This document shows positions 15,119-30,729 of a stretch of DNA of 30,729 nt, piece by piece. How positions within the stretch are numbered: the first letter of the stretch is position 1; the number at the start of each line of letters is the position of its first letter. The notes beneath the pieces were generated by a model, which worked only from the letters and a program-made list of their open reading frames with translations, did not search any database and had not been told where the DNA came from. Source of the stretch: a virus; the IMG/VR virus record IMGVR_UViG_3300025769_000534, positions 1-30,729 of that record; one strand, 5' to 3'. A program made the translations under genes and the position numbers.

Positions 15119-15411
15119 GTTGTTGTCACCGTTACTGTCCCCACAGATCCTGTTGCACTAGAACCACGAACATGGGGAACATTTGTTCGGGTTATTTTTA
15201 CAAATCCATCTTGTTGGAACAAAGCACCAATTTCAAGACCAGAATCATCTGTTTGCAAATCAGTTAAAGTGAGTCTCGTTGCTCTTTCTTCGCCGGGATT
15301 TTGTTGTTGCTCCATATAAATAGCAAAACTTCGCGTAAGATTTGCGAAATATTGTTGATCGTACTGCGTTGGAGGTACAGCAAAAAAAGGTAGAATTAAA
15401 TTTCGGGACAC
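15115..15411 (-). CDS. Small tail-associated protein (98 aa) with a VGTVTV repeat end
   Basis: Begins SRNLILPFFAVPPTQYDQQY after a GTG start (15409-15411) that overlaps the 636-aa gene stop as TAGTG. The middle has a helix (ANLTRSFAIYMEQQQNPGEERATR) and strands (LTLTDLQTDDSGLEIGALF). The last 15 residues (VRGSSATGSVGTVTVTTT) match the short repeat unit of the 306-aa protein and the right-edge protein. Position directly after the stabilisation-like protein suggests a tail-tip partner. Family not recognised. Confidence 0.65.
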   Translation of the reverse strand: MSRNLILPFFAVPPTQYDQQYFANLTRSFAIYMEQQQNPGEERATRLTLTDLQTDDSGLEIGALFQQDGFVKITRTNVPHVRGSSATGSVGTVTVTTT

Positions 15412-17321
15412 TAACGCCTCCCATCAGGCCGCACATCAAGTCTTGGAGATCCCAATCTCCAACCTACGCCTGTTGCTGTAGATTCAATTCTCATTGCAAA
15501 ACTACGCCCACGTAATCTTAAATGAACTTGATCTGTAAACTGTTCGACAGGCACAGACGCTGTCTTTGTTACAGCACTTGATGTTGATTGTAGATAATTA
15601 CCACCGGGGAAATTTCTTGTTTTTACAGTTATATTTGCAGATGGACTACCTGCAGTCGATCCTCTAAATGTTAAATCTGGTATCATGCGACGGATAAAAG
15701 AAAACTGCTCTCCATCTCCAATGTCCATTTGGCTTGATTCAATATATGCAGTAAGTGCAGACCCATCGTCATCAAATCCAGATTCTTGAGTGTAGAGATA
15801 GTTGTTTGGCCCTGCTGCAATAGGGTTGTCGAAGATACCACGATCCATCCAAAAGCTTCTTGCAAGTGAACCATAATACCAAACCTTTTGTTCATAATTA
15901 TAAACTACATATCTATCATTATTGTCGCTAGATGCAGAAGGATAAAACCACCATATTTCAGAAAAAGCCGTATTTGTTGCAGCTACAATTTTTTCACGTT
16001 GTAAAAGATTAAAATCATCAAATACAAAGTCTCTTACAGAGCAAGGCAATCTTTGTACTGTACCGCCATAAACGTAGAACTCTTTTAGACCCATCCAAAA
16101 CACATTATCTTCTACAGCAACTGCGGAAAGCGGCCCCATCGTTGTAATGTTTTCAGAAACAAGGTTTACACCAAAAGTAAACGGTGGCCCCAAGAACTGC
16201 ATGGCATACAACGATTCGTCGGTGTAAACCAAGATCTGCTGCCTTGTTTCAACTGCGCTAACTATCTCAGAACCAGATCCAAGCCTTAATTCACCCGCAG
16301 TATTTGCTGCTGTTGTTGCCCAATCAGTTAAAGATTCTTGAGAAGAAAAACGTATAGCTAATGGATCTTGAACGCCGGGGTTTGCCTCTGTATCACAACC
16401 AAAAGCAATGATGTGCCTATCTCTATCAGAAACAAGAATTTGTTTGGCTATAGTCGGTGCGCTTGTTGATCCCGCAAGCGAGTCCAAACTGACGGCTCTT
16501 GTAGTAAAACCACCAGTTTTGTCCCAATAATATATGCCGCCATTACGCACGTTGATAAGTAAGTCTTCACCAAAGTTATCATGTGACCAGATACGCAAAG
16601 TGTTTGTAACAATAGGCGTAGTAGCTGCCTGACCCCAACCATTACGTCCCCATGTACCTACACCCCAACCTGCCCCTGTTGCTGTTGTATCTAAACCAAC
16701 ACTTACCTGATACGCACCCACAACAGAACTACCGCCATTACCTGTATCAGAGGAGTTTGCGGTGACAGGCGTTGGGGATAATGCTCCGTCTACAGTAATA
16801 TCTTTAATTGTTGTGCCTGCGGTTCTCGCTACGATGGTATAACTATTATCATTAACAACCTGTGTCACATAGTATTCTTGGTTAAGCACGGCTGCTGTAA
16901 TATTGCCTCCAAGACTTGCGGCACCGCTGAATGTTACAAAATCATTTACCACTGCGCCATGATTAGTGTCTGTTACAGTAATTGTAGATGAACCATTAGT
17001 TGCGGAAAAGGTTACGTCCCCCGCCGCTGTTGTGTTTCTTATGGGTGTAATATCGTTAAACGCACCGCCGTCTTGGTTAATATAGTATTTTAGAGAAGTG
17101 CCAATACCAATAAGTCGGCTGTTATCTAATGCCACCCAAGGGTGCATAGCTCTTGCTGTGCCAAGATATGATGCTGTACTAAACTTCTCCCACCCACCAA
17201 TCTTCTCAGGCATACCAAAGCGAAAACGTACCTTATCTACGTCAAACCAACCGCCCTCATTGGTGTAAGAGGTAGTCTCTCGATTGACACCTGGGCGGAA
17301 CTGAAGCTTGGTTAGTGGCAT
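15411..17321 (-). CDS. Phage stabilisation / tail-hub-like structural protein (636 aa)
   Basis: Starts MPLTKLQFRPGVNRETTSYT, then NEGGWFDVDKVRFRFGMPEKIGGW, the head motif of podoviral stabilisation-type proteins (P22 gp10-like family) that plug the connector after DNA packaging. A beta-rich insert (about 95-190) looks like an Ig-like domain, and residues 217-230 are Gly-Trp rich (GWGVGTWGRNGWG). The rest consists of repeated strand pairs (HIIAFGCDTE, QILVYTDESLYAMQF, VFWMGLKEFYVYGG), suggesting a beta-propeller-like fold. The ending RPDGRR is basic. Next to the fibre genes and the small partner, it most likely sits at the portal-tail interface. The family is assigned from memory of motifs, not by search. 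Confidence 0.65.
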   Translation of the reverse strand: MPLTKLQFRPGVNRETTSYTNEGGWFDVDKVRFRFGMPEKIGGWEKFSTASYLGTARAMHPWVALDNSRLIGIGTSLKYYINQDGGAFNDITPIRNTTAAGDVTFSATNGSSTITVTDTNHGAVVNDFVTFSGAASLGGNITAAVLNQEYYVTQVVNDNSYTIVARTAGTTIKDITVDGALSPTPVTANSSDTGNGGSSVVGAYQVSVGLDTTATGAGWGVGTWGRNGWGQAATTPIVTNTLRIWSHDNFGEDLLINVRNGGIYYWDKTGGFTTRAVSLDSLAGSTSAPTIAKQILVSDRDRHIIAFGCDTEANPGVQDPLAIRFSSQESLTDWATTAANTAGELRLGSGSEIVSAVETRQQILVYTDESLYAMQFLGPPFTFGVNLVSENITTMGPLSAVAVEDNVFWMGLKEFYVYGGTVQRLPCSVRDFVFDDFNLLQREKIVAATNTAFSEIWWFYPSASSDNNDRYVVYNYEQKVWYYGSLARSFWMDRGIFDNPIAAGPNNYLYTQESGFDDDGSALTAYIESSQMDIGDGEQFSFIRRMIPDLTFRGSTAGSPSANITVKTRNFPGGNYLQSTSSAVTKTASVPVEQFTDQVHLRLRGRSFAMRIESTATGVGWRLGSPRLDVRPDGRR

Positions 17322-17328
17322 TCATCAC

Positions 17329-19869
17329 CTATGTTTTTACTACGAGTTCGGTTGCAGAGATAGCAGTCCCTGCCAGTACACTTGGGTCATCTGCTGTTGT
17401 GCTAATCGTTCCGTCTGTTTGTACAAAGTATTGCTGCCCTGCGGTGAGGCTACTTTGGTTTGTGCTAACTGATCCAATTATGTCTACCAATGCAGCTTGA
17501 CCGTTAGTTACTTGGCCTCTAATCTCTGGATTGTAAACTCTTGTCGTTCCATAATTACTGTTTGTAGTCAATCTGTAGACAAGCACACTTACTTTTGAAT
17601 TGGTATCGTAGGTTATTCTAGGAGTATAAACCTGTCCTGAAGTTATATTGTCTTGTTGATCGCTAAAAGATATTGAAGTGCCTGAAACAGTTCCTTGTTT
17701 AGATGCTGTTATGTTGCCAGTTGTTTTATATATGACAATCATTTTACCTAAAGTCGGATCAAAAGACACGCCATAATTATTATGGTTTTCAACACTCGAC
17801 CATTCTACTTCTGAACCAAAAGATATTGAATATCCTGATACTGTGCCAACAATTGCCTTATAAGTGCTTTGTTGAAAGAAAATTACAACTTTATTATTAG
17901 CACTATCAAAGTCAACACGTATGTTACCTGTAGACCCAGAATTAAATGCAGTGGGTGAGCCGTCGTATGAAACTGAAGTACCGCTTATATTTCCAACAAT
18001 AGCCTTTCCATTTGAGCTACCACCATCATCTCTATAAACAGTAATAACTTTATTGTTAGAGCTATCAAAAGTGCTTTTTATATAAGTGGCTTCGCTTCCT
18101 ACAAAAATTTGCTCTGAGCCAAATGATATTGATGTCCCACTCACTGTTCCAACAATACCAATTCCTGTGTTATTATAACCAAAAGAAATATAAACTTTAT
18201 TAGCGTTGGAATCAAAACAACAATCTATGTTATTGGTATTTCCAGATTTAAAAGTTACAGGCGATCCGAAGGATATTGACGTACCAGAAACAGTGCCTAC
18301 TACCGCTTTTCCGTAAGTGTCGCTTCCATCCCTATAGGCTATGACTATTTTATTATTAGAACTGTCAAAAGCCATTCCTCCCATACTTGTATCTACGTTT
18401 GCAAAAGTTACTGCTGATCCTGCGGTCATAGTAGTCCCTGACACATTAGCAACTACTGCCACACCTTTTTGAGGACTATTAGATCCGTCAGTGTATGCAA
18501 ACACAACTTTGTTATTACTGCTGTCAAAAGCTAGAATATTTTCAGTAGCATTTTCACTTACATATGTAAGTTCAGTCCCAAGGACTGATGGTGTGACCAC
18601 GCCCCTCGACATACCAATGTAGTTTTCTGAGGTGAGGTTTGAGTTGCTGTAACCTATTTGCAAAGCATTAGCTCTTAAATTACCACCAGAGCCATCCTGA
18701 TAAAAAAGAAGAGCTTGACCGCTGCCATTAGCTGCGACCTCTGTATAACCAGAAGAAACGGTAGTATCAACTGAAACCCTAGAATTAACAGTAACATCTG
18801 TTCCAGATATACTTCCAGTTACATAGTATACTTTATCCGCATTACCTCCACCACTACCATCAGTGTAGTGAATAACAAACTTCTTTGCTGTTTCATCAAA
18901 TGTAACACTATTATAATTTACTATTTCTGTCTCAAAATCTACAGCAGTTCCAAAACTTACATCTGTTCCGCTTATTGTAGCGGTTCTAACTTTTCCGTTA
19001 TTACTATCGTTTACGTCTTTATAAACTAATATATGTTTGTCTGAAGAACTGCTGTAAGTTAAATCTATGAAATTAGATTCACTGGACAAAAAGGTAACAG
19101 CAGTCCCAAAACTTATGCTCGTGCCAGATACAGTTCCAACTCTGCCTGAAGCAGAAGTGTTTGCGTCCCCATAACAAATTAAAACTTTATTTTGTCCACT
19201 ATTAAAACTTACTGCGGGAGCATTAGTTGTAGAAGTACGAAAATTAACTGCGCTACCAAAACTTATACTCGTACCCGAAACAGTGCCGACTACTGCCGAA
19301 CCCCTCGAATTAGTATTATCTCTATATGCTATTACAATACGTTCATTGCTAGAGTCATAATCTATTCCATTCTGTTGTGCAGAAGTATTGACGCTTGCAT
19401 ATACTACTTCTGTTCCAAAACTTATGGAAGTGCCAGAAATTGTACCCACTATTGCTGTGCCATAGTAGGAGTTGCTGTTATCCCTGTATGAAAGCACGAC
19501 TTTGTTATTAGTCGAATCAAAAGCAGCGGCTATATTGGTGGTGTTACCTGCATTAAAAGTTACTTCACTACCAAAAGTTACAGAATCGTCTGAAGTATCA
19601 ATTGTGCCAACCTTGCATTTTCCATAGTTGTTTGAAGCTTTATAGGCAACTAAAAATTTATTAGCATTTGAGTCATAGACTATAGCAGTTTCTCCACTTG
19701 CGCTATTTATAACACTTGCTTGGGAACCTAAATTTTCTGATGCAGTAGTTAAGCTGATACTGCTAACTGTCCCATCTGCATTAACCACCACTGGCCTACC
19801 GCATGGCAATGTGCCACTGGCTATTGCTTTAAACTCACCACCTTCTTCAGCCCCTATACGCTTTAACAT
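17329..19869 (-). CDS. Fibre-like protein with two seven-blade repeat domains (846 aa), paralogue 3
   Basis: Modules: N-terminal GRPVVVNADGTVSSIS; seven about 50-residue repeats; linker SNLTSENYIGMSRG; seven more repeats; then a C-terminal knob (LTAGQQYFVQTDGTISTTAD ending LVVKT). Each repeat contains an F/Y-D-S-x-x-N-K-V-V-I-A-Y-R-D strand pair and usually GTVSGTSISFG. I counted seven core motifs in each half, the seventh of the first half being degenerate (GSGQALLFYQDG). Seven repeats per half strongly suggests two seven-bladed beta-propellers. It is one of three tandem paralogues. The likely role is host recognition or binding of cell-surface sugar, inferred from position and fold. The start is ATG 19867-19869. 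Confidence 0.75.
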   Translation of the reverse strand: MLKRIGAEEGGEFKAIASGTLPCGRPVVVNADGTVSSISLTTASENLGSQASVINSASGETAIVYDSNANKFLVAYKASNNYGKCKVGTIDTSDDSVTFGSEVTFNAGNTTNIAAAFDSTNNKVVLSYRDNSNSYYGTAIVGTISGTSISFGTEVVYASVNTSAQQNGIDYDSSNERIVIAYRDNTNSRGSAVVGTVSGTSISFGSAVNFRTSTTNAPAVSFNSGQNKVLICYGDANTSASGRVGTVSGTSISFGTAVTFLSSESNFIDLTYSSSSDKHILVYKDVNDSNNGKVRTATISGTDVSFGTAVDFETEIVNYNSVTFDETAKKFVIHYTDGSGGGNADKVYYVTGSISGTDVTVNSRVSVDTTVSSGYTEVAANGSGQALLFYQDGSGGNLRANALQIGYSNSNLTSENYIGMSRGVVTPSVLGTELTYVSENATENILAFDSSNNKVVFAYTDGSNSPQKGVAVVANVSGTTMTAGSAVTFANVDTSMGGMAFDSSNNKIVIAYRDGSDTYGKAVVGTVSGTSISFGSPVTFKSGNTNNIDCCFDSNANKVYISFGYNNTGIGIVGTVSGTSISFGSEQIFVGSEATYIKSTFDSSNNKVITVYRDDGGSSNGKAIVGNISGTSVSYDGSPTAFNSGSTGNIRVDFDSANNKVVIFFQQSTYKAIVGTVSGYSISFGSEVEWSSVENHNNYGVSFDPTLGKMIVIYKTTGNITASKQGTVSGTSISFSDQQDNITSGQVYTPRITYDTNSKVSVLVYRLTTNSNYGTTRVYNPEIRGQVTNGQAALVDIIGSVSTNQSSLTAGQQYFVQTDGTISTTADDPSVLAGTAISATELVVKT

Positions 19870-19871
19870 AG

Positions 19872-22469
19872 TTACCCTTTCACGATAAGTTTAGTTGCCG
19901 ATACAGCCGTCCCTGCAAAGACGCTAGGATCAGCAGCCGTTGTACCAATTGTGCCATCTATCTGAACGTAGTAGCTTTGCCCTGCTGTCAATCCTATTTG
20001 ATTGTCAGATATTGCACCTTGTGTGTCTACTAAAGCGTGATCACCGTCTGCTACTTGGCCTCTGGTGGTTGCTACGGTGTTTGTAGTAAAAATATTAGCT
20101 GTACCATGATTGGAACTATTTACATCTCTATAACCTATAAAAACTTTGTTAGCATTGCTATCAAAAGCAGCGGTTAGATTATCTAAATTATTTCCTGTTT
20201 TTACTGTTGTGATATCATCAAAACTTATGCTTGTGCCACTAACAGTTCCAGAAATACCAGATATTGAAGTGTTACTATTAACAAAAGCTATAACAACTTT
20301 GTTTACGCTAGTATCAAAAACAGCAGCGGCTAAACGATTATCATTTGATCCACTCGTAAAATCAACAGCAGAGCCAAAAGAAATAGATGTACCAGAAACA
20401 GTTCCAACGTATGCTTTACCCACGTCAGAACTACCTCTTATTGCAATCACAACTTTGTTATTAGAACTATCAAATGTCATGGTTGTTGAATTAACAGTAC
20501 CTGACTCAAACTCAACAATGCTTCCAAAGCTTGTACCTGTACCAGAAACAGTGCCGACTATCGCCTTTCCTTTATTGCTGTCACCTCCATCTGCATATGC
20601 AACAACAAATTTATTAGAGTTGGAGTCAAATGTTGTAGATATTCGCTCTGTAGTTCCACTTTCAAAAGTATTAGGAGAACCAAAAGAAATAGACGTACCA
20701 CTAATAGTTCCAACAATGGCTGTGCCTTGGTTTGAGTTACCAACGTCATTATAACAAATTACAACTTTGTCAGCGTTAGAGTCTTCTACTACTGAAGTAA
20801 AAGTTGTGTGTGCACTCTCAAAAACTGTTTCAGTGCCAAAACTTATAGAGTTATCAGAAGAGTCTACGCTTCCTACAATGGCTGTTCCATAATCAGAGTT
20901 ACCTGCATCTTTATAAGCTATAATTACCCTATTAGTATCGTCATAAAAAGTCATACTTATCTCAGAAGTGTTACCACTATTAAAAACAACTTCAGAACCA
21001 AAACTTATTGAGCTACCACTAATTGTACCTACAATCGCTGTGCCTTGGTTTGAGTTACCATTATCTCTATATGCAATAACTATTCTATTAGAGTTGCTAT
21101 CAAAGGCAGATGCAATTTGATTAGTAGACGCACTTGCAAAAACAACGTCAGATCCTACAGAAGCAGCACTTCCTGTCTGAAAAGCAGGCCCACCCGACAT
21201 TCCGATATAGTTCTCTGAGGTGAGGTTTTGTGATGTAGAAGCGTTTGTAAAAACAATACCCCCAATCCTGTCATCTCCACCATACCTATAAAAATTAAGA
21301 ATTTTATTTACGTTGCTATCGAAAACTGTTACTGTTCCTCCTTGTACACCAGATATAGCTCCTGAGTTATGAAAAACTACTGGTGTGCCAAACGTAATAG
21401 CCGTGTCATTTACAGTTCCAACTGTTAAAGTGCCATACTGACCATTTCCACCGTCTTGATATGAAATAACAACCTTTCCTGCGTTGCTATCAAATCCAAT
21501 ACTTGTTTGTTGGGCATTTGCGGCTTCAAAAACATATTCATTGCCAAAACTTATTGATGTGCCACTAACAGTCCCAACAATCGCAGTCCCATAATAAGAG
21601 TTACCATTATCTCTAAAAGCAACAACTATTCTGTTATTCGTGCTGTCAAAAGTAGCTTTGTAATGTGATGGTGTGCTAGTTACATTCCAAGTCGTTTCTG
21701 AACCAAAACTTATACTTGTGCTGCTTACTGTACCTACATTTGCATAACCAGTAGTATTATTCCTATAGACTACAATAACTTTTCCATTAGTGCTGTCAAA
21801 AGCTAAAGAAGCATTATCATCAAGAGTTCTTGCTGCAATTTGAGTGGCACTTCCAAAACTTATGCTTGTTCCTGATACAGTTCCTACTATTCCATGAGGG
21901 TAGTGAGAAGATGAAGATTTGCGAAAAACAATTACAATTTTATTATTAGTACTGTCAAAAATAGAATCGCTATAATTAGCACTACTTCCAGATTCAAATT
22001 TTACCGCCGTGCCATAACTAATACTAGTGCCGCTTACTGTGCCAACTCTAGAGGTTCCATGTCCACTACTCGTCCAATCTGCATATGAAACAACAACTTT
22101 ATTATTGCTACTGTCAAATGCAGCAGTCATACCATCAGCGTAGCCGCTATTAAAAACAACAGGAGTTCCGTAGCTTAGAGTATCTCCAGAAATAGAAACC
22201 ACAACAGATGTTCCATAATTCGAATTACTCTCATCTCTATAAACAATAACTGCTTTATTGTTTGAACTATCAAATGCAGCAGCAAGTTGTCCTGCATCTG
22301 AATTAGCAAAAGTTTGTTCACTGCCTACATTTTGAGATATACTAGTTTCAGCAACAACACTCACTGTCCCATCTGCATTTACAACAACAGGCTTGCCGTT
22401 TGGCAACGTACCACTGGCGACTTCTTGTGTCTGTCTTGGTACGCTTGGATCGTTACCAATGATACGCAT
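19872..22469 (-). CDS. Fibre-like protein with two seven-blade repeat domains (865 aa), paralogue 2
   Basis: Same plan as its downstream neighbour: MRIIGNDPSVPRQTQEVASG, GKPVVVNADGTVSVV, seven repeats (core motifs from FDSSNNKAVIVYRDE to FDSNVNKILNFYRYG), linker NLTSENYIGMSGG, seven repeats (FDSNSNRIVIAYRDN to FDSNANKVFIGYRDV), and a C-terminal knob (LTAGQSYYVQIDGTIGTTAA ending KLIVKG). Start ATG 22467-22469 is preferred over an in-frame extension that adds a basic MGRARRRRVGLH peptide. The two blade sets differ from each other and from paralogues. Probable homotrimer or adhesin tip, not shown by the sequence. The GTVSGTSISFG segment is encoded with different serine codon classes in neighbouring blades. 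Confidence 0.75.
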   Translation of the reverse strand: MRIIGNDPSVPRQTQEVASGTLPNGKPVVVNADGTVSVVAETSISQNVGSEQTFANSDAGQLAAAFDSSNNKAVIVYRDESNSNYGTSVVVSISGDTLSYGTPVVFNSGYADGMTAAFDSSNNKVVVSYADWTSSGHGTSRVGTVSGTSISYGTAVKFESGSSANYSDSIFDSTNNKIVIVFRKSSSSHYPHGIVGTVSGTSISFGSATQIAARTLDDNASLAFDSTNGKVIVVYRNNTTGYANVGTVSSTSISFGSETTWNVTSTPSHYKATFDSTNNRIVVAFRDNGNSYYGTAIVGTVSGTSISFGNEYVFEAANAQQTSIGFDSNAGKVVISYQDGGNGQYGTLTVGTVNDTAITFGTPVVFHNSGAISGVQGGTVTVFDSNVNKILNFYRYGGDDRIGGIVFTNASTSQNLTSENYIGMSGGPAFQTGSAASVGSDVVFASASTNQIASAFDSNSNRIVIAYRDNGNSNQGTAIVGTISGSSISFGSEVVFNSGNTSEISMTFYDDTNRVIIAYKDAGNSDYGTAIVGSVDSSDNSISFGTETVFESAHTTFTSVVEDSNADKVVICYNDVGNSNQGTAIVGTISGTSISFGSPNTFESGTTERISTTFDSNSNKFVVAYADGGDSNKGKAIVGTVSGTGTSFGSIVEFESGTVNSTTMTFDSSNNKVVIAIRGSSDVGKAYVGTVSGTSISFGSAVDFTSGSNDNRLAAAVFDTSVNKVVIAFVNSNTSISGISGTVSGTSISFDDITTVKTGNNLDNLTAAFDSNANKVFIGYRDVNSSNHGTANIFTTNTVATTRGQVADGDHALVDTQGAISDNQIGLTAGQSYYVQIDGTIGTTAADPSVFAGTAVSATKLIVKG

Positions 22470-22477
22470 GTGGAGTC

Positions 22478-22735
22478 CTACTCTTCTTCTTCTGGCTCTA
22501 CCCAATCAGGATTAGCTGACCACGTTGTGCCATCTAACTTATACTTGTTACCCACCCAATCGCTAGGTGCGTTGGTCACGTTCTCTGTAATAGTCGCATT
22601 GCCACTGTTTAGATCAGCAATAATAAACTGAGCAGGATCACCCACTGTAATATTATCTGCTGTCGCTGTAATTACTACGTCATCTGCAAGTAGATACTTG
22701 CTTAACTTAGTTGATGTTTCCACGATAGTTTTCAT
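22478..22735 (-). CDS. Small acidic virion protein (85 aa) between fibre genes
   Basis: Begins MKTIVETSTKLSKYLLADDV, followed by VVITATADNITVGDPAQF, then a segment with GTTWSANPDW and an EPEEEE end. It is beta-rich and acidic with no membrane segment. Small proteins with a 'TKLSKYLLADD' start recur in my memory of marine phages beside tail genes, of unknown role, perhaps a fibre chaperone or attachment factor. The ATG is at 22733-22735. It sits 3 bases after the 868-aa gene and 8 bases before the 865-aa gene start, so it is part of the same transcript. Confidence 0.65.
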   Translation of the reverse strand: MKTIVETSTKLSKYLLADDVVITATADNITVGDPAQFIIADLNSGNATITENVTNAPSDWVGNKYKLDGTTWSANPDWVEPEEEE

Positions 22736-22738
22736 TGT

Positions 22739-25345
22739 CTAACCTTTCACTATTAGCTCTGTGGATGATATAGCAGTTCCCGCCGTAACGGAAGGACTTC
22801 CTGCTGTTGTGCTTAACGCCCCATCGGTGGGCGACACAAAGTATGTCTGCCCTGAAGTTAAGCTTGTTTGATTTCTTGCAATTGAGCAAGAAGAAAGTAT
22901 CTCGCCATTCGTGCCATCTAACGCTGCACCCTTCATAAATCCTACGAAGTTTTCTGAGGTGAGGTTGGACGGTGTTCCAGGAGATTGATAAACAACAGCC
23001 TTTCCGTAGTCACCGTCATCATCGTCTTCATATGCAAAAACAACTCTCTCTGCTGCACTATCAAAAACACCAGTTATATATTTTGTTCCGCCCTGCTCAA
23101 AAACTATCGCATCGCCAAAAGAAATTGATGTTCCGCTCACAGTTCCTGCTTTAATAGTTCCTTTATTTGAACTTGAGTCATCTGGAAAAGCAACAATTGT
23201 TTTGTCATTTACACTATCGTAAACACAAGAAACATTTGAATTGTCTCCCGTGCTTCCGACTGCACCAAAATTTGTAGCCGACCCAAAAGAAATTGATGTC
23301 CCCGAAACCGTCCCTACAACAGCACCTCCAGTAGTGTCATCTGAATTTCTAAAACCAATAACCACTTTATCTGCCGTTGAGTCATAAGCCACACCTGGGT
23401 TTTGAGCGTGATTTGAGCCATTAACGTTTGCTTTGCTACCATAGCTTACAGAAGTCCCGCTTACTGTGCCAACATACGCATGACCTGTATCATCTGATGC
23501 CTGCGCAGAAACAACAAACTTACTATTTCCTATATAAGCCATTCTTAAAACATAATTGTTTGTCTCTGAATACTGAACTCTTGATCCAAAACTTATTGAT
23601 GTACCACTTACCGTGCCAATAATCCCATAGTTTCTATTGTTTTCACTGCTGTTTCTATAAGCAACCACAATTTTATTATTTACATTATCAAAAATTGCTT
23701 GGCAGTCTCTTGCGACTTGAGTTTCAAATACAACTGCGGAGCCAAAGCTTATTGATGTTCCACTGACTGTTCCAACTATTGCCGTTCCACGATTACTATT
23801 TGCAACATCAGTATAAACAATAACCGCTTTATCATTTGCCGTATCATAAGTAGCGCCCGTATATTCAATACTAGCTGATTCAAAAACCACTGGCGTTCCA
23901 AAAGTAATTTCGCCTGAAGCTACTGTTCCAACAACAGCCGTGCCATAACCTGAGTTTCCTTGATCTCTATATGCGACAATAACTTTTCCAAGAGTGCTGT
24001 CATAAGCACTAGCAATATAACCTACAGAGGCTGCTTCAAATTGAGGGGTGCTCGTAACAGATTGATCTCTAGTACTTTGACTAACACTACTCACAGTCCC
24101 ATTTGCATTTACAATGACAGCTTTACCATCGGCTATCGTGCCGCCTGTGTCAGCAGAGTAGCCTACTCTTATTACTTGTGTGATACCAAGATCACTTCCC
24201 GTAGCATCTAAATAAGCAGGGACGACTCTTTTATTAGTGCTGTCATATGCTATTCCTGGGCGTTGATAAACGCCCTCAACATCTTTAAGAACTGTTTCTG
24301 TATCAAATGTAATGCTTGTTCCGCTAACAGTACCAGATATAAATGTAGGTCTATTGGAGTTACCACCGTCTTTATAAATGATAGCTATTTTTCCTGCATT
24401 AGAGTCATAGACTCCACGATGATATTCTGACTGACCTGCGTTAAAAACAACAGCACTTCCGAAACTTATACTTGTGCCGCTTACTGTTCCAACTTGAGCC
24501 TTTCCTTTACTTGCATCACCACTATCTTGATAAACCAAAACCATTTTATTATTTGACGAATCAAAGATAAGATCACAATTAGTTGCAGAGCTAGAACTTA
24601 CAGCTACCTCTGATCCGTAACTTATAGATGTGCCAGAAACAGTTCCCACTATGGCAGTGACTTGTTGACTTGCGCCTTGATCTCTATAAGCAATTACAAC
24701 CTTGTTATTACTGCTATCAAATTCTGCTCCTGTATTATTAGTGTTTGCAGAATTAAAAACAACAGGTGTACCAAAACTTATATTTGTGCCTGACACTGTG
24801 CCAACAGCCGATGTACCGTAATCTGAATTTCCTGCATCTTTGTAAGCAACAACAAACTTATTGGCATTGCTATCGAAACAAGCACTAATATGTTGAGTGT
24901 TACCTGACTCAAAAGCTGCTTTAGTGCCAAAAGATATTGAAGTACCACTTACTGTTCCAACAATAGCTGTACCAGTTCTAGAGTTTGTGCTTGGATTGTT
25001 TGTGTCCGTGTAAAAAATAACAACTTTGTTTGCATTGCTATCAAAAACGCAATCCATTTCATCGCCAGTAATTTCACTATCTTGAAAAGTTACCGCAGAA
25101 CCAAGGCTTATGGAGTTATTAGAGGGATCTACAGTACCAACACGAGCTTTACCTCTTTGTCCATCAGTGCCATCGCTATAAGCGATTACGACTTTACCTG
25201 TGTTAGAGTCAAAAGCCGCAGCAAAACCAGTTGTAGAGCCTGTGTTAAAAGTTACGTCTGTGCCTACAGCCTGAGTAACAGTTAATCCTTCACTAACCGC
25301 AGCCCTGATGATGGCGTCTTTGGTTAAGTTGCCAATTACCTTCAC
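22739..25345 (-). CDS. Fibre-like protein with two seven-blade repeat domains (868 aa), paralogue 1
   Basis: GTG start (25343-25345) with AAGGAG 7 bases upstream. MKVIGNLTKDAIIRAAVSEG leads directly into seven repeats (FDSNTGKVVIAYSDG to YDSTNKRVVPAYLDA), then the GKAVIVNANGTVSSVSQ module, seven more repeats (YDSTLGKVIVAYRDQ to FDSAAERVVFAYEDD, with one weak blade YIGNSKFVVSAQAS), then NLTSENFVGFMKG and the knob (LTSGQTYFVSPTDGALSTTA ending LIVKG). Compared with the two paralogues, the 'VNADGTVS' and 'LTSEN' modules have exchanged places around the propellers. Two seven-bladed beta-propellers are inferred from repeat count. The likely role is host binding. Confidence 0.75.
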   Translation of the reverse strand: MKVIGNLTKDAIIRAAVSEGLTVTQAVGTDVTFNTGSTTGFAAAFDSNTGKVVIAYSDGTDGQRGKARVGTVDPSNNSISLGSAVTFQDSEITGDEMDCVFDSNANKVVIFYTDTNNPSTNSRTGTAIVGTVSGTSISFGTKAAFESGNTQHISACFDSNANKFVVAYKDAGNSDYGTSAVGTVSGTNISFGTPVVFNSANTNNTGAEFDSSNNKVVIAYRDQGASQQVTAIVGTVSGTSISYGSEVAVSSSSATNCDLIFDSSNNKMVLVYQDSGDASKGKAQVGTVSGTSISFGSAVVFNAGQSEYHRGVYDSNAGKIAIIYKDGGNSNRPTFISGTVSGTSITFDTETVLKDVEGVYQRPGIAYDSTNKRVVPAYLDATGSDLGITQVIRVGYSADTGGTIADGKAVIVNANGTVSSVSQSTRDQSVTSTPQFEAASVGYIASAYDSTLGKVIVAYRDQGNSGYGTAVVGTVASGEITFGTPVVFESASIEYTGATYDTANDKAVIVYTDVANSNRGTAIVGTVSGTSISFGSAVVFETQVARDCQAIFDNVNNKIVVAYRNSSENNRNYGIIGTVSGTSISFGSRVQYSETNNYVLRMAYIGNSKFVVSAQASDDTGHAYVGTVSGTSVSYGSKANVNGSNHAQNPGVAYDSTADKVVIGFRNSDDTTGGAVVGTVSGTSISFGSATNFGAVGSTGDNSNVSCVYDSVNDKTIVAFPDDSSSNKGTIKAGTVSGTSISFGDAIVFEQGGTKYITGVFDSAAERVVFAYEDDDDGDYGKAVVYQSPGTPSNLTSENFVGFMKGAALDGTNGEILSSCSIARNQTSLTSGQTYFVSPTDGALSTTAGSPSVTAGTAISSTELIVKG

Positions 25346-25356
25346 AACAACTCTCC

Positions 25357-25734
25357 TTAGTCAGTTATTTGCTCGTAACTGATTATTACTTCTAGATCGT
25401 TAGCAGTCCCTGCTGTTGCAGTGATAGACATGTTCTCTTCTAGGTATATCGCTGTGTTCTTATCCAACACTACCAGTGAAGAGTCAGCCGCTACAGATGC
25501 AGTTGAAATCAATGAGAATGCAGTGCCGCCACCTGATGCTGCGCTGTGTACGTCTATCGTAATGTCACAAGCATTCGTGCCATCTACGTTTGCAACTTGA
25601 ATCATGTTCACTTTCAAAACATCATCACTCGATGCTGCGTTATTTAAGATTGTAGTCTGTGAAGTCGTTGAAAGCGCATACTGGTCTGTCTTACCCAGTA
25701 TTGAGCTTACATTTACAATATTTGGTGCAGCCAT
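25357..25734 (-). CDS. Small beta-rich structural protein (125 aa)
   Basis: Reads MAAPNIVNVSSILGKTDQYA, then LSTTSQTTILNNAASSDDVL, KVNMIQVANVDGTNACDITI, and ends ITATAGTANDLEVIISYEQITD. Alternating strands with many Ser/Thr/Ala/Asp residues suggest an Ig-like or jelly-roll capsid/tail decoration domain. It stands directly before the 868-aa fibre gene with an 11-base spacing. A short structural protein of this type is familiar from marine phages. The exact role is unknown. Confidence 0.65.
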   Translation of the reverse strand: MAAPNIVNVSSILGKTDQYALSTTSQTTILNNAASSDDVLKVNMIQVANVDGTNACDITIDVHSAASGGGTAFSLISTASVAADSSLVVLDKNTAIYLEENMSITATAGTANDLEVIISYEQITD

Positions 25735-25747
25735 ATCTTAGCCTCCT

Positions 25748-26428
25748 TTACCCAAAAACAATAGCCATAGCTATGGCCTTACCTGTTCCAATTCCTGCAC
25801 TACCGAAAGAGATAGTACCACTGCCATTTGTAACCAACGCCTGCCCGTTAGTCCCGTCGGACGTAGGAAGGGTAAGAGCCGTTACAAATCCCTGTAGGTT
25901 TGCGTCATAAGCTAATACGTTTGTGCCTATCGCAAGTCCTAAATTTGTTCTAGATGTTCCTGCATTTGCAACATCTGATAAGTTATTTGATGCAAGCAAC
26001 GCTCCTGATAAGGGTAACGCCGCCCCTATATCAACAACCGCTGCGCCAGATCCTGCACCATCACAGTAAATTATAGCTGATGCACCGTTTGCTACCGTAA
26101 CATTTGCACCAGATCCTTGTGAGAATACAGCGGACTGACCTGAATTATTCTTTACAAAGTACATACGCTTTGCATCATTTGGCGCAACCGTTATGGTATT
26201 TGTCCCAGAAGGTGAGCCGCCTAGAACTAACACATGATACTGCCCATCTGATGCAGATCCATCTGATGTGGTCAGTGTATGCGTTGTCCCTGAGAGTGTG
26301 ATGTCTCCGACACCCGCCGCAACACGGTCAATAATATCGAAGTTTGTATTGGTTGACGTACCCCATGTTCCAGATTCGTCACCTGTAGCGATCTTTTTTA
26401 TACCGCTGTTTGTTGTATAGGTTGCCAT
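25748..26428 (-). CDS. Tail-fibre-like protein (226 aa)
   Basis: The N-terminus, MATYTTNSGIKKIATGDESG, followed by TWGTSTNTNFDIIDRVAAGV, is the common start of phage tail-fibre proteins in which a trimeric head is anchored. A beta-rich Ser/Gly/Thr region follows, with the SNNLSDVANAGTSRTNLGLA motif characteristic of fibre shafts, then VLAYDANLQGF. The C-terminus is Gly/Ala-rich (GIGTGKAIAMAIVFG). At 226 aa it is short for a complete fibre, so it may be a connector for the larger propeller proteins. Confidence is high for the type and low for its exact place. Confidence 0.75.
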   Translation of the reverse strand: MATYTTNSGIKKIATGDESGTWGTSTNTNFDIIDRVAAGVGDITLSGTTHTLTTSDGSASDGQYHVLVLGGSPSGTNTITVAPNDAKRMYFVKNNSGQSAVFSQGSGANVTVANGASAIIYCDGAGSGAAVVDIGAALPLSGALLASNNLSDVANAGTSRTNLGLAIGTNVLAYDANLQGFVTALTLPTSDGTNGQALVTNGSGTISFGSAGIGTGKAIAMAIVFG

Positions 26429-26440
26429 GTTCTCCTACCT

Positions 26441-27361
26441 CTACGCTGCTATCTCTGTCCAAGTTGTTCCTGGTGTGGGATCTATTTCCGCCCATGTACT
26501 GTTGGGGTTAGGCGTAATATTAGACCAAGAAGTTCCTGGAGCGGGAACTATATTTTCATAAACTATCACAGAACCTACCAATGCGCTAGTGCTAACACCA
26601 GTAACCTCTGCTTTACTGATAGTCGTTACGGATACTGTACCAACAACTCCTGTTCCAGACAAGTTATCTGATGAAACTGGCACAACTTGTGATGTTAATA
26701 CTGTAACAGGCCCAACTGTACCTGTTCCTGCTATTCCTGTTGCTGCAACATTTGGAGCTGAACCAATGATACTTGGTTCAGTAACGCCGCCAGTAGCTGC
26801 AACACCAGTTGGCGTAACATCAACACCAACACCTTCACTAATTGTAACAGAACCTACACCACCTGTGGCTGCAATACCTGTAGGCGGTACGTTCACACCA
26901 ATTACAATGCTTGTGCCAGATCCTACTGACGCTGTAGATGATAGCCCTGTAACAGAAACATTAATGCCTCCACCTTGAACAACTACAACATTTCCTACAA
27001 AGGTTTGGCCTTGTAAACCTGTGACAGGAACGTTCTGTTCTGTAACAAGAGTTACGTCACCCACACCACCTGTAGCCGCAAGACCAACAGGCGTAACTGA
27101 GTTATTACCTTTTGCTGTTACACTACCAAGACTAGCAGTAGCACCTAAACCCGTAACAGATATTGATATATCTTCTCGAACAACAGCAGTGCCAACCTGA
27201 CCCTGCATTGCTGCAAGCGTTGATTTCTCACCACCCCAAGAGGTTTCACCCCAAGTTAACTCACCCCAACCGTTGAGAGTGTGACCAACACGAACAGGAA
27301 CCGCTTCATTCCAAGCGCCCTCACCCCATGTTCCACGCCCCCAACCTGTGATGTTTGTCAC
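26441..27361 (-). CDS. Gly-Trp-rich protein with about ten 23-residue repeats (306 aa)
   Basis: Three regions. Residues about 1-45 are Trp-Gly repeats (GWGRGTWGEGAWNE and GWGELTWGETSWGG). Residues about 50-275 hold roughly ten copies of a unit like V-x-x-T-G-(V/L)-x-A-T-G-G-V-G-S-V-T-(V), about 23 residues each. The end has three W repeats (TSWSNI, STWAEI, TTWTEI). The GTG start (27359-27361) has AAGG 10 bases upstream. The repeat unit recurs at the C-terminus of the 98-aa protein at 15115 and in the right-edge protein, and the Gly-Trp motif recurs in the stabilisation-like protein. Likely a virion surface or tail protein, perhaps a beta-solenoid; no family known to me. Confidence 0.65.
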   Translation of the reverse strand: MTNITGWGRGTWGEGAWNEAVPVRVGHTLNGWGELTWGETSWGGEKSTLAAMQGQVGTAVVREDISISVTGLGATASLGSVTAKGNNSVTPVGLAATGGVGDVTLVTEQNVPVTGLQGQTFVGNVVVVQGGGINVSVTGLSSTASVGSGTSIVIGVNVPPTGIAATGGVGSVTISEGVGVDVTPTGVAATGGVTEPSIIGSAPNVAATGIAGTGTVGPVTVLTSQVVPVSSDNLSGTGVVGTVSVTTISKAEVTGVSTSALVGSVIVYENIVPAPGTSWSNITPNPNSTWAEIDPTPGTTWTEIAA

Positions 27362-28781: not shown

Positions 28782-29051
28782 TTACCCATTTCTAGTAAAC
28801 GCACCACCACGACTTGCTGCGCCCATGCCACGACACTTGCCGCCCATACCCATTTTAGTGACTTTACCACCACTTTTTTCTTTTAGGAGCAGTTGATCTG
28901 CTTCTTCAGGTGGCGTTAAATCTACAACATCAGGACGCTCTTTTGGGCGTAGAGACTTTTTAACAGCACCTGATCTGCGTTCTGGTCTTGGTTTTGGTTT
29001 CATAGGCTTCTTTAAGTCTTTTCGGGTCTTCTTGGGGCTAGGTACTGCCAT
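28782..29051 (-). CDS. Basic Pro/Lys-rich protein with a GGKCRGMG tail (89 aa)
   Basis: The N-terminal half is highly basic and disordered (PKKTRKDLKKPMKPKPRPER), the middle is mixed (DVVDLTPPEEADQLLLKEKS) and the end is Gly-rich (MGMGGKCRGMGAASRGGAF). The terminal motif is common in marine-phage virion proteins. Strong positive charge suggests contact with packaged DNA. It lies 4 bases after the 224-aa gene, in the same operon. Confidence 0.65.
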   Translation of the reverse strand: MAVPSPKKTRKDLKKPMKPKPRPERRSGAVKKSLRPKERPDVVDLTPPEEADQLLLKEKSGGKVTKMGMGGKCRGMGAASRGGAFTRNG

Positions 29052-29054
29052 GTC

Positions 29055-29729
29055 TTAATCCTCGTTATAAAGGTTATCAAATACTCTATTCACGTCCAGT
29101 GTATAGTCTAAATCACTTTTTGAATAGTGTATATGTTGTGAAGGTTTAAAATCAGGTGCGCCTTTGCCAGTCTCAAACCAAGCGGGATGTGTTACTCTCA
29201 CACGGTTATTAGGGAGCGCAACAATATTACCTGTCCATTCTCCTGCATCAAGCAACTGCATAACATGACTTTGTTTATGTTGTGCAGGGTCGTCAGCTAT
29301 CTCACTCTCTGCATAATCGACGGTAAACATATATTTTGCAGGGAACATGTTACCATCTATCTTAGCTAACCAAGGACAGGGAGTTGCTCTGTCAAGAACA
29401 TACACAGCGTGTGTATGAGAGGAACAGTCCCAAGGCTGTGCGTCATGCACCGCCATAGGTTCGGGCCATTCCTCAAATGGCTCATCTGCAACTAACGCAG
29501 TTATAGGCATCCTAGCCCACATTGCACCGCCATGTACATTCTCATCGCCTTCCTCATCTGCTTCGCAGCCTGTAAAGATAACTTGAAAACTCAAGCATCT
29601 GTTTGGCATTGTTGTTACCGCTATTGCCATCGCATGAAGGAACTCTCCATGGTAGGCTTGGTGGTTATGCGTATATTCACGACGAACCCAACATTTAAAA
29701 TGTGGTATATTACTTTGTAAATAAGGCAT
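29055..29729 (-). CDS. Hypothetical globular protein, probably virion-associated (224 aa)
   Basis: Starts MPYLQSNIPHFKCWVRREYT. It is rich in His, Trp and acidic residues: HNHQAYHGEFLHAMAIA, NRCLSFQVIFTGCEADEEGD and HTHAVYVLDRATPCPWLAKI. The ending, IHYSKSDLDYTLDVNRVFDN, is acidic. It has an enzyme-like composition with several His clusters, but no catalytic motif is recognised. I recall similar uncharacterised proteins beside the structural genes of marine cyanophages and pelagiphages. Start ATG overlaps the preceding stop. Role unknown. Confidence 0.65.
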   Translation of the reverse strand: MPYLQSNIPHFKCWVRREYTHNHQAYHGEFLHAMAIAVTTMPNRCLSFQVIFTGCEADEEGDENVHGGAMWARMPITALVADEPFEEWPEPMAVHDAQPWDCSSHTHAVYVLDRATPCPWLAKIDGNMFPAKYMFTVDYAESEIADDPAQHKQSHVMQLLDAGEWTGNIVALPNNRVRVTHPAWFETGKGAPDFKPSQHIHYSKSDLDYTLDVNRVFDNLYNED

Positions 29730-30037
29730 TACCTACGTGTTTTGCCGCCTTTAGCCATGGTTTTCTTCTTCATGCTGCCGCCATATCTTTTCTTGACTGC
29801 ACCGCCTTTAGCCATGGTTTTCTTCTTCATGCTACCACCGTATCTTTTCTTAGCAGCGCCGCCTTTTTTCATTTTACCTACACCATCAGCAGCAAAGAAT
29901 GGAACGCTCTTTCCGTTCTTCTTCACCATCTTTAACTTTGATCCCGCCCCTTTTTTAACAACCTTGCTACCTTTCTTCATAGCAACAGGCTTTTTCATTG
30001 CACCGCCTCTAGCATAACCTTTTTTCTTCATAGCCAT
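29729..30037 (-). CDS. Lys/Gly-rich repetitive basic protein (102 aa)
   Basis: The first half is Lys-rich (KKKGYARGGAMKKPVAMKKG, KKGAGSKLKMVKKNGKS), and the C-terminal about 45 residues are two copies of a 19-residue unit (AVKKRYGGSMKKKTMAKGG) plus a partial one. It has essentially no acidic residues apart from one Asp. This resembles a protamine- or histone-tail-like DNA-condensing peptide or a virion DNA-binding protein; such K/G-repeat proteins are seen in marine phages. ATG at 30035-30037 has AGGAG upstream. The two flanking genes are structural, so packaging within the head is the likely setting. Confidence 0.65.
   Translation of the reverse strand: MAMKKKGYARGGAMKKPVAMKKGSKVVKKGAGSKLKMVKKNGKSVPFFAADGVGKMKKGGAAKKRYGGSMKKKTMAKGGAVKKRYGGSMKKKTMAKGGKTRR
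29745..29858 (-). repeat. 57-base tandem repeat in the basic protein gene
   Basis: Two near-identical 57-base units (29745-29801 and 29802-29858) encode the 19-residue unit, with a partial third copy beginning at 29859. The copies differ at a few positions, so the duplication is recent but not fresh. Confidence 0.7.
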
Positions 30038-30046
30038 TTTAATCTC

Positions 30047-30729
30047 CTATGTTGTGTTAAGTTGACCGCCCATACCACTGTGATATTGACAATAATAGTA
30101 AAGTGTTGGAGCGCCATTTGCTACAGTTATTGTTGACGTGTACGCTCCTGTATTTATTGTCACGCCTGTAGTATACTCAGACCCCCCACCATGCGTTCCA
30201 TCTGACGTGGTTGAGAATCGTAAAGGATGCCCTGTCGCCGCTGACCAATTAAACGTATACGTCTGGCCTTCAGAAAGAGTGAGCGTAGGCTGTAAAGCAC
30301 CATCTATATAATACTTATTGCCAGACCCTGGGTTAGCGACAGTGACTGTATAAACAGTAACCGCAGTAGTTGATACGGTCACAGAGCCAACGCTTGCAGT
30401 TGCCGCAGAACCAGTAGGACTTGCAGCAGCATCTTCGTCAGAGTTTACAGCAACGTTACCGACAAGTGCATTTGCAACTACACCACTAACTAGATTTGCA
30501 TCTGTTTCCGATATAGAGACACTAACCCTGCCAACTGAAGCAGTAAGTAGAGTGCCTTGGTTACCTACAGGATCAAAGCCGTATAACGCTCTGCTTTCTT
30601 CTAGAGATCTATCGGGTCTTGGATTACGCAGAGACTGAGGATCATTTATTTTTATTCTACCAAGAAAGTTCTGAGGCTGATCGGGGTCAACAACATCTCT
30701 TCCAACAAGAAATCCTGTCTTAACACCGT
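30047..30729 (-). CDS. Virion protein with a C-terminal cupredoxin-like domain, N-terminus beyond the window
   Basis: The frame is open from the window edge (227 codons visible). The visible N-terminal part contains VVDPDQPQNFLGRIKINDPQ and repeats of the type VGSVTV (TASVGRVSVSI, NALVGNVAVN, TASVGSVTVST). The last about 90 residues form a cupredoxin-like domain: GNKYYIDGALQPTLTLSEGQ, TYTFNWSAATGHPLRFSTT, then LYYYCQYHSGMGG. The possible type 1 copper ligands are His (30227-30229), Cys (30089-30091), His (30080-30082) and Met (30071-30073), with His-to-Cys spacing of 46 residues, close to 47 in plastocyanin. The GTG at 30380-30382 is internal. It precedes the basic protein and adaptor, so it is most likely a virion or tail component. 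Copper binding is inferred from ligands only. Confidence 0.65.
   Translation of the reverse strand, partial: GVKTGFLVGRDVVDPDQPQNFLGRIKINDPQSLRNPRPDRSLEESRALYGFDPVGNQGTLLTASVGRVSVSISETDANLVSGVVANALVGNVAVNSDEDAAASPTGSAATASVGSVTVSTTAVTVYTVTVANPGSGNKYYIDGALQPTLTLSEGQTYTFNWSAATGHPLRFSTTSDGTHGGGSEYTTGVTINTGAYTSTITVANGAPTLYYYCQYHSGMGGQLNTT

Follow-up and report, generated by a model that had tools for sequence, protein, structure and literature searches.

Tandem seven-bladed propeller proteins of a marine phage as probable exchangeable adhesins of the tail-fibre tip

Three tandem genes of a marine virus of bacteria encode proteins with two sets of seven repeats each, which are likely to be receptor-binding adhesins at the tip of the upstream fibre, serving as exchangeable lectin-like heads; the binding, the docking and the stoichiometry are what we infer. 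The repeats and their closure pattern, the quantisation of their number, the three-gene module, the ending of the fibre, the position of a 125-aa protein and the exchange of rings are read from the sequences themselves. The DNA analysed, called the window here, is the virus record IMGVR_UViG_3300025769_000534 at its full length of 30,729 bases, and its long genes lie on the minus strand. From position 30,727 downwards, an SU10-type adaptor (PF24175) and small virion proteins precede the 226-aa fibre, next to which come the 125-aa protein and then the propeller genes, the first of them followed by an 85-aa open reading frame (Table 1). Downstream lie a P22/SU10-type nozzle (phrog_3287), lysis genes, three large proteins, Sak4 and a helicase. 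Full-length relatives of the nozzle protein are found in phages such as DSL-LC04 (41.9%) and in Pelagibacter phages; the nozzle (15411-17321) was considered as a relative of the propellers and rejected, since it forms a separate family of its own. Several further genes were observed in the window: a partial gene running off its end (30047-30727) with a cupredoxin-like C-terminal part, two small, very basic, lysine/glycine-rich proteins near the adaptor gene (29729-30037 and 28782-29051), and, between a phrog_644 protein and the fibre gene, a 306-aa low-complexity protein with repeated TAATGGVG-like stretches (26441-27361), relatives of which are present in nine contigs.

Table 1. Positions of the propeller genes, their rings and the neighbouring fibre-related genes in the window
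Feature	Position	Strand	Remarks
Tail-fibre gene, 226 aa	25748..26428	-	C-terminus ends GTGKAIAMAIVFG (tag ~25751-25783); directly upstream of the module
125-aa protein, proposed fibre-tip/adhesin connector	25357..25734	-	Conserved alignment; homologue in 55/70 contigs
Gene 1	22739..25345	-	868 aa, 7+7 blades; ring A precedes the barrel, ring B within it; barrel clades with gene-1 proteins of other phages
Gene 1 ring A, seven blades	24167..25273	-	Repeat HMM; 83.5% nt identity to L008 gene 1 ring A; edges approximate
Gene 1 ring B, seven blades	22961..24088	-	Repeat HMM; edges approximate
85-aa protein, proposed tail-fibre assembly chaperone	22478..22735	-	Homologue in 48/70 contigs, around the propeller genes
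Gene 2	19872..22505	-	877 aa as listed, 7+7 blades, one barrel holding both rings; true start at Met ~22469, as homologues suggest
Gene 2 ring A, seven blades	21222..22355	-	Repeat HMM; edges approximate
Gene 2 ring B, seven blades	20061..21173	-	93.6% nt identity to the sole ring of the L053 gene 3 protein
Gene 3 (P0001)	17329..19869	-	846 aa, 7+7 blades, one barrel holding both rings; AlphaFold model
Gene 3 ring A, seven blades	18646..19758	-	Model residues 46-405; 97.6% nt identity to L010 gene 3 ring A
Gene 3 ring B, seven blades	17512..18591	-	Model residues 427-786; nt identity 96.3% to L002 gene 3 ring B, 92.9% to L001 gene 2 ring B
Gene 3 C-terminal barrel segment	17332..17511	-	Gene 2 equivalent ~19875-20060, gene 1 equivalent ~22742-22960

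The first-pass annotation, made from the sequence alone, had counted seven plus seven copies of a strand motif in each of the three proteins, 42 blades in all, over about a quarter of the window. This count was borne out by a repeat HMM, by an AlphaFold model and by relatives, and the three open reading frames cover about 26% of the window. The repeat unit is about 52 residues long. The motif in its strict form occurs 10, 13 and 12 times in the proteins of 846, 877 and 868 aa, respectively, and an HMM built from the proteins themselves detected 13, 14 and 14 significant repeats, with independent E-values from 6e-12 to 2e-26 except for two half-blades at E of about 3-4e-6. Together with the strand pattern, the HMM gave seven similar four-stranded units per ring. 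Since blade 7 of ring A of gene 3 is degenerate (P0001 residues 374-404; 387-396 matched with E 1.7), the count for that protein depends in part on the AlphaFold model and on relatives. Every ring opens with a stretch corresponding to the second half of the repeat and closes with a repeat from which that half is missing. This is the arrangement expected of standard propeller closure, in which the start of the ring supplies the outer strand of the last blade. Pfam and PHROGs searches with the three proteins returned no sensible family; the only Pfam match above the cut-off, Cyclophil_like2 on one blade, covered about 40 residues and was read as spurious.

Closed seven-bladed rings were supported by structure prediction. 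The AlphaFold2 model of P0001, computed with 42 relatives, reached a mean pLDDT of 83; most of each ring scored above 85, and the barrel described below was of low confidence. The predicted ring A (46-405) superposed on YncE with Z 32.5 and an rmsd of 2.4 Å over about 303 residues, and also on PLL lectins (Z ~30), WDR5 and RACK1; for the predicted ring B (427-786) the matches were Sec12 and a RACK1-type ring (Z ~28). Similar results were obtained for a single-ring relative, the 481-aa gene 3 protein of contig L053, modelled with 57 sequences (pLDDT 87, ring mostly above 90), which superposed on the BP39L lectin (Z 32.8, 318 residues, 2.6 Å) and on PLL4 with a TM-score to target of 0.77. Thus, the predicted models superposed as whole rings on solved seven-bladed rings with Z of 28-33 overall. 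A sequence search of the PDB found no match for P0001 (E up to 1) or for the 57-member profile (E up to 0.01). Neither an open solenoid nor a number of repeats other than seven came out of the predictions. The half-blade closure, the superpositions of the predicted models and the quantisation in relatives give good support to the proposal that each chain forms two closed rings of seven blades.

Relatives were collected by a scan of IMG/VR, which yielded 79 loci. The lengths of 171 complete open reading frames cluster at about 480 aa with 7 repeats and about 855 aa with 14, with almost nothing between. Nearly all of the 165 complete relatives shorter than 530 aa or longer than 800 aa have 7 (±1) or 14 (±1 or 2) repeats, and because complete relatives show these numbers at two lengths, the repeat number is not due to chance. 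Exactly three propeller genes were present in 28 of the 30 modules complete at both ends. However, the set of three double propellers to which the first-pass annotation drew attention is not fixed, since each gene can be single (S) or double (D) independently in relatives: the three-gene modules comprised SSS (8), SSD (6), DSS (4), DSD (3), DDD (3) and other patterns (4). A search of genome contigs for propeller loci gave one locus, on a MAG contig with a phage tail region, and therefore no host was identified. This contig, L091, was binned as a Euryarchaeota MAG and is probably phage sequence.

The rings are set into a small domain, a barrel, that is split in each protein. Its segments follow the order ASGTLPNGKPVVVNADGTVS, ring, NLTSENYIGMS, a second ring where present, and a C-terminal part of the form ...LTAGQ.YYVQ.DGT...AGTA.SAT.LIVKG. 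The linker between the rings had been thought to lie in the same place in all three proteins, but the barrel strand NLTSENYIGMS occupies it in the 846- and 877-aa proteins only, where both rings lie in barrel loops; the linker of the 868-aa protein, whose first ring is ahead of the barrel, contains GGTIADGKAVIVNANGTVS. At the sequence level the barrel identifies a protein as the product of gene 1, 2 or 3. The nearest barrel in another contig belonged to the same gene rank in 126 of 126 cases, and a tree of the last 62 residues grouped the proteins for the most part according to their place in the operon and not according to whether they have one ring or two. The barrel loops can hold other inserts, namely a propeller of a different type (L016/L047) or a cupredoxin-like domain (L030/L072, in gene 3). 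The latter is comparable to the C-terminal part of the partial gene at the window end and to the N-terminus of the L091 fibre. A ring-in-barrel unit also forms the C-terminus of tail fibres in relatives. The L091 fibre (L091:7448-14500, 2350 aa), as read by eye, carries four such units in tandem in one chain and lies downstream of a protein resembling a siphovirus tail-tip protein.

The propeller proteins had been taken for the fibres themselves, a view that we abandoned: the fibre is the gene upstream of the module, and the propeller proteins look like tip adhesins. In relatives, the 125-aa gene usually follows a fibre gene whose product varies at the N-terminus with the tail type and has a constant ending, GKAIAMA(M/I)VFG; in some contigs a larger open reading frame further upstream was taken for this survey. 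We then used this ending as a DNA search pattern without selecting for propellers, and obtained 79 new loci, a few of them from contigs of the first set (e.g. L099, L030), so that the two sets are not fully independent. A homologue of the 125-aa protein came next after the fibre ending in all 68 of these loci with at least 450 nt downstream. What followed it, in the 53 loci with at least 1.5 kb, was a propeller in 12 cases, a glycine-rich protein in 27 and some other protein in 14. Read by eye, these other proteins include RCC1-like, YVTN-like and kelch-like repeats and LamG-like proteins, and domain families in this slot in other phages include Gly_rich_2 and Laminin_G_3. RCC1-, YVTN- or kelch-like repeat proteins after the 125-aa protein were noted in L107, L109, L137, L149, L133, L141, L153, L157 and L171; possibly these are other propeller families used as adhesins.

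The module was observed with an SU10/P22-type nozzle in the window, with a T7-type fibre in L053 (phrog_1640) and with a contractile sheath in L008 (phrog_23). In the isolates DSL-LC04 and HTVC033P, the fibre and the 125-aa homologue are followed by glycine-rich adhesins (Gly_rich_2); in the isolate S-SKS1, a 125-aa homologue after the fibre is accompanied by LamG proteins and a Phage_tail_APC chaperone, and the fibre ending differs (IMMGMIF). The number of adhesin genes in such other classes can be two (HTVC033P, S-SKS1). A sequence search with the profile of the 125-aa protein found no solved structure. The 85-aa protein is 40.7% identical (E 9.8e-19) to the N-terminal part of a protein of Lentibacter phage ICBM2 that carries Phage_tail_APC; PF16778 did not match the 85-aa protein, and the ICBM2 homologue has this domain in an extra C-terminal part.

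Comparison of closely related genes indicated that the rings are units of exchange. In bins of 52 residues, gene 3 of the window and that of L010 shared 94-100% amino acid identity in ring A, 28-50% in ring B and 100% at the C-terminus. The opposite was found with gene 3 of L002 (26-46% in ring A, 94-98% in ring B, 94-100% at the C-terminus), and ring B alone was shared with gene 2 of L001 (80-100%). The identity between ring B of gene 2 and the ring of L053 gene 3 ends at both ring edges. Among ring pairs of different contigs with at least 80% nucleotide identity, 71 in number, 28 occupied the same place, 28 a different gene and 15 a different slot or form; after removal of further redundant contigs, 12 of 33 ring clusters spanned genes. 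These alignments place the breakpoints at the edges of the rings, which move as wholes from one gene, slot or phage to another. Rings within one genome were no more different than expected by chance (0 pairs with at least 70% identity observed against 0.86 expected, P 0.42), so that the data do not support selection for a virion to carry distinct rings.

In the mechanism that we propose, each protein would consist of a short gene-specific N-terminus and the barrel as a constant scaffold, with one or two closed seven-bladed rings held in the barrel loops or, in gene 1, ahead of the barrel. The constant C-terminal ending of the fibre probably docks the 125-aa connector, which would hold the adhesins, and the 85-aa protein probably aids folding or assembly as a chaperone. 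The variable face of the rings, made of the d-a and b-c loops, would bind host surface molecules, probably glycans. In propellers these loops form the usual ligand face, and they were assigned to it here on the basis of strand order and such general knowledge. A set of 1,023 distinct blades gave mean entropies of 2.35 bits for the d-a and b-c loops and 1.23 bits for the a-b and c-d turns (permutation P 0.0001). Whole rings would travel between genes, slots and phages by recombination at their edges, within the conserved DNA of the barrel, and this would change specificity and thereby, we suppose, host range. The first-pass annotation had suggested alternative or combined receptor-binding units, and a set of combined units is the best reading, receptor binding being presumed. 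A more elaborate version is tentative and rather doubtful: that the fibre tip is an obligate heterotrimer with one of each of the three paralogues on the threefold fibre end, which would present three to six different propellers per fibre at once, drawn by marine phages from a shared pool through ring exchange as a combinatorial adhesin system.

Since the relatives used in the exchange analysis are all metagenome contigs and the repeats are similar to one another, the apparent ring exchange could come from assembly, with short reads of related phages joined across conserved barrel or blade DNA. We consider this very improbable, because the exchanged rings are 80-99% and not 100% identical, which argues against simple chimeric assembly; moreover, 12 independent clusters, drawn from many samples, show exchange, while barrels and gene order stayed consistent (126/126). 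A location on the head was retained as an alternative because the barrel is of low confidence in both predicted models and has a sub-threshold resemblance to a cement family. The proteins would then be capsid decoration (cement) proteins with the barrel on the head and the propellers projecting, for example keeping the virion near cell-surface glycans. When five barrels with the ring cut out were compared with PF09956 (Phage_cement_2), two matched over nearly the whole length (E 1.4e-4 and 4.3e-4). However, the best scores (22.6 and 21.0 bits) were below the Pfam gathering cut-off of 24, and the other spliced barrels scored 12.7-13 or were not listed. The fibre that precedes the module, in 68/68 loci with the fibre ending, the movement of the module between phages of different tail types and the ring-in-barrel C-termini of tail fibres elsewhere make a head location very unlikely.

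The rings might instead be enzymes of the depolymerase or sialidase type that cut surface polysaccharide and are not pure binders. Many phage tail proteins are depolymerases, and sialidases were among the Foldseek matches of the single-ring model, but the best matches were seven-bladed rings and lectins (BP39L, PLL family). Sialidases are six-bladed. The most conserved columns lie in the turns and core strands and not in the variable loops, and an enzymatic role appears unlikely to us.

Read as fibre-tip adhesins, the proteins are of wider interest, since little is known of how most uncultured marine phages recognise their hosts. To the first-pass annotation our analysis adds the barrel scaffold, the ring exchange and the module of fibre tag and 125-aa protein. 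The constant fibre ending and the 125-aa protein provide a marker of where to find the adhesins of many such uncultured phages, whatever their type (propeller, glycine-rich, LamG or other repeats). Swapping closed rings among three scaffold genes would be a simple means of changing or combining binding specificities, and ring exchange between genes may let related viruses alter what they bind.

Propellers in phage tails are already known from phiKZ gp131, phi11 gp45, PRD1 P2 and the T7 and crAss nozzles, and exchangeable fibre-tip adhesins from gp38 (PMC12892980). In the literature on phage propellers, pelagiphage fibres and gp38, most subscription journals aside, we found no description of the ring-in-barrel cassette, the three-gene exchange or the portable module. 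The propeller-type receptor-binding domains of phi11 gp45, with five blades, and PRD1 P2 (PMC6115969), the latter described as six-bladed (PMC6115969) or as a distorted five-bladed ring (PMC4901313), are not inserted in a barrel cassette, unlike the window rings. The C-terminal domain of phiKZ gp131 (PDB 4GBF) is a seven-bladed propeller at the baseplate edge with a suggested receptor-binding or degrading role; this myovirus baseplate protein has one such ring, and tandem paralogues or ring exchange are not described for it (PMC4901313). The closest solved folds to the predicted rings are the PLL/PHL/BP39L lectins (Z 29-33, TM-score to target up to 0.78), which are bacterial lectins with 7-13% identity to window-type rings and no detectable sequence relation; in PLL, sugars bind between the blades, at two types of site with up to seven of each (PMC12203525).

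Among isolates, Lentibacter phage vB_LenP_ICBM2 has a fibre-like protein (AYP28108, P0006) whose end holds a propeller-like stretch between the halves of a window-type barrel, followed by a chaperone related to the 85-aa protein of the window. It differs from the window in having one protein with a divergent ring, and a search for a 125-aa homologue in this phage found none. The trimeric tail fibre of T-even phages (S16, PP01, T2) carries the adhesin gp38 at its tip; one part of gp38 is constant and joins the fibre, and another is variable and binds the receptor (PMC12892980). Like gp38, whose gene stands directly behind that of the distal tail fibre, the propeller genes, as known here from the gene order, come after a fibre gene with a constant ending, with the 125-aa gene between, and glycine-rich adhesins hold the same slot in relatives of the window module. 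Whereas gp38 is one protein with a polyglycine sandwich, the window encodes three paralogues that combine seven-bladed rings with a barrel, and the 125-aa protein as a product of its own; the polyglycine-rich domain is absent from the window proteins, and the glycine-rich proteins in the slot occur only in other phages. The likeness to gp38 is one of layout.
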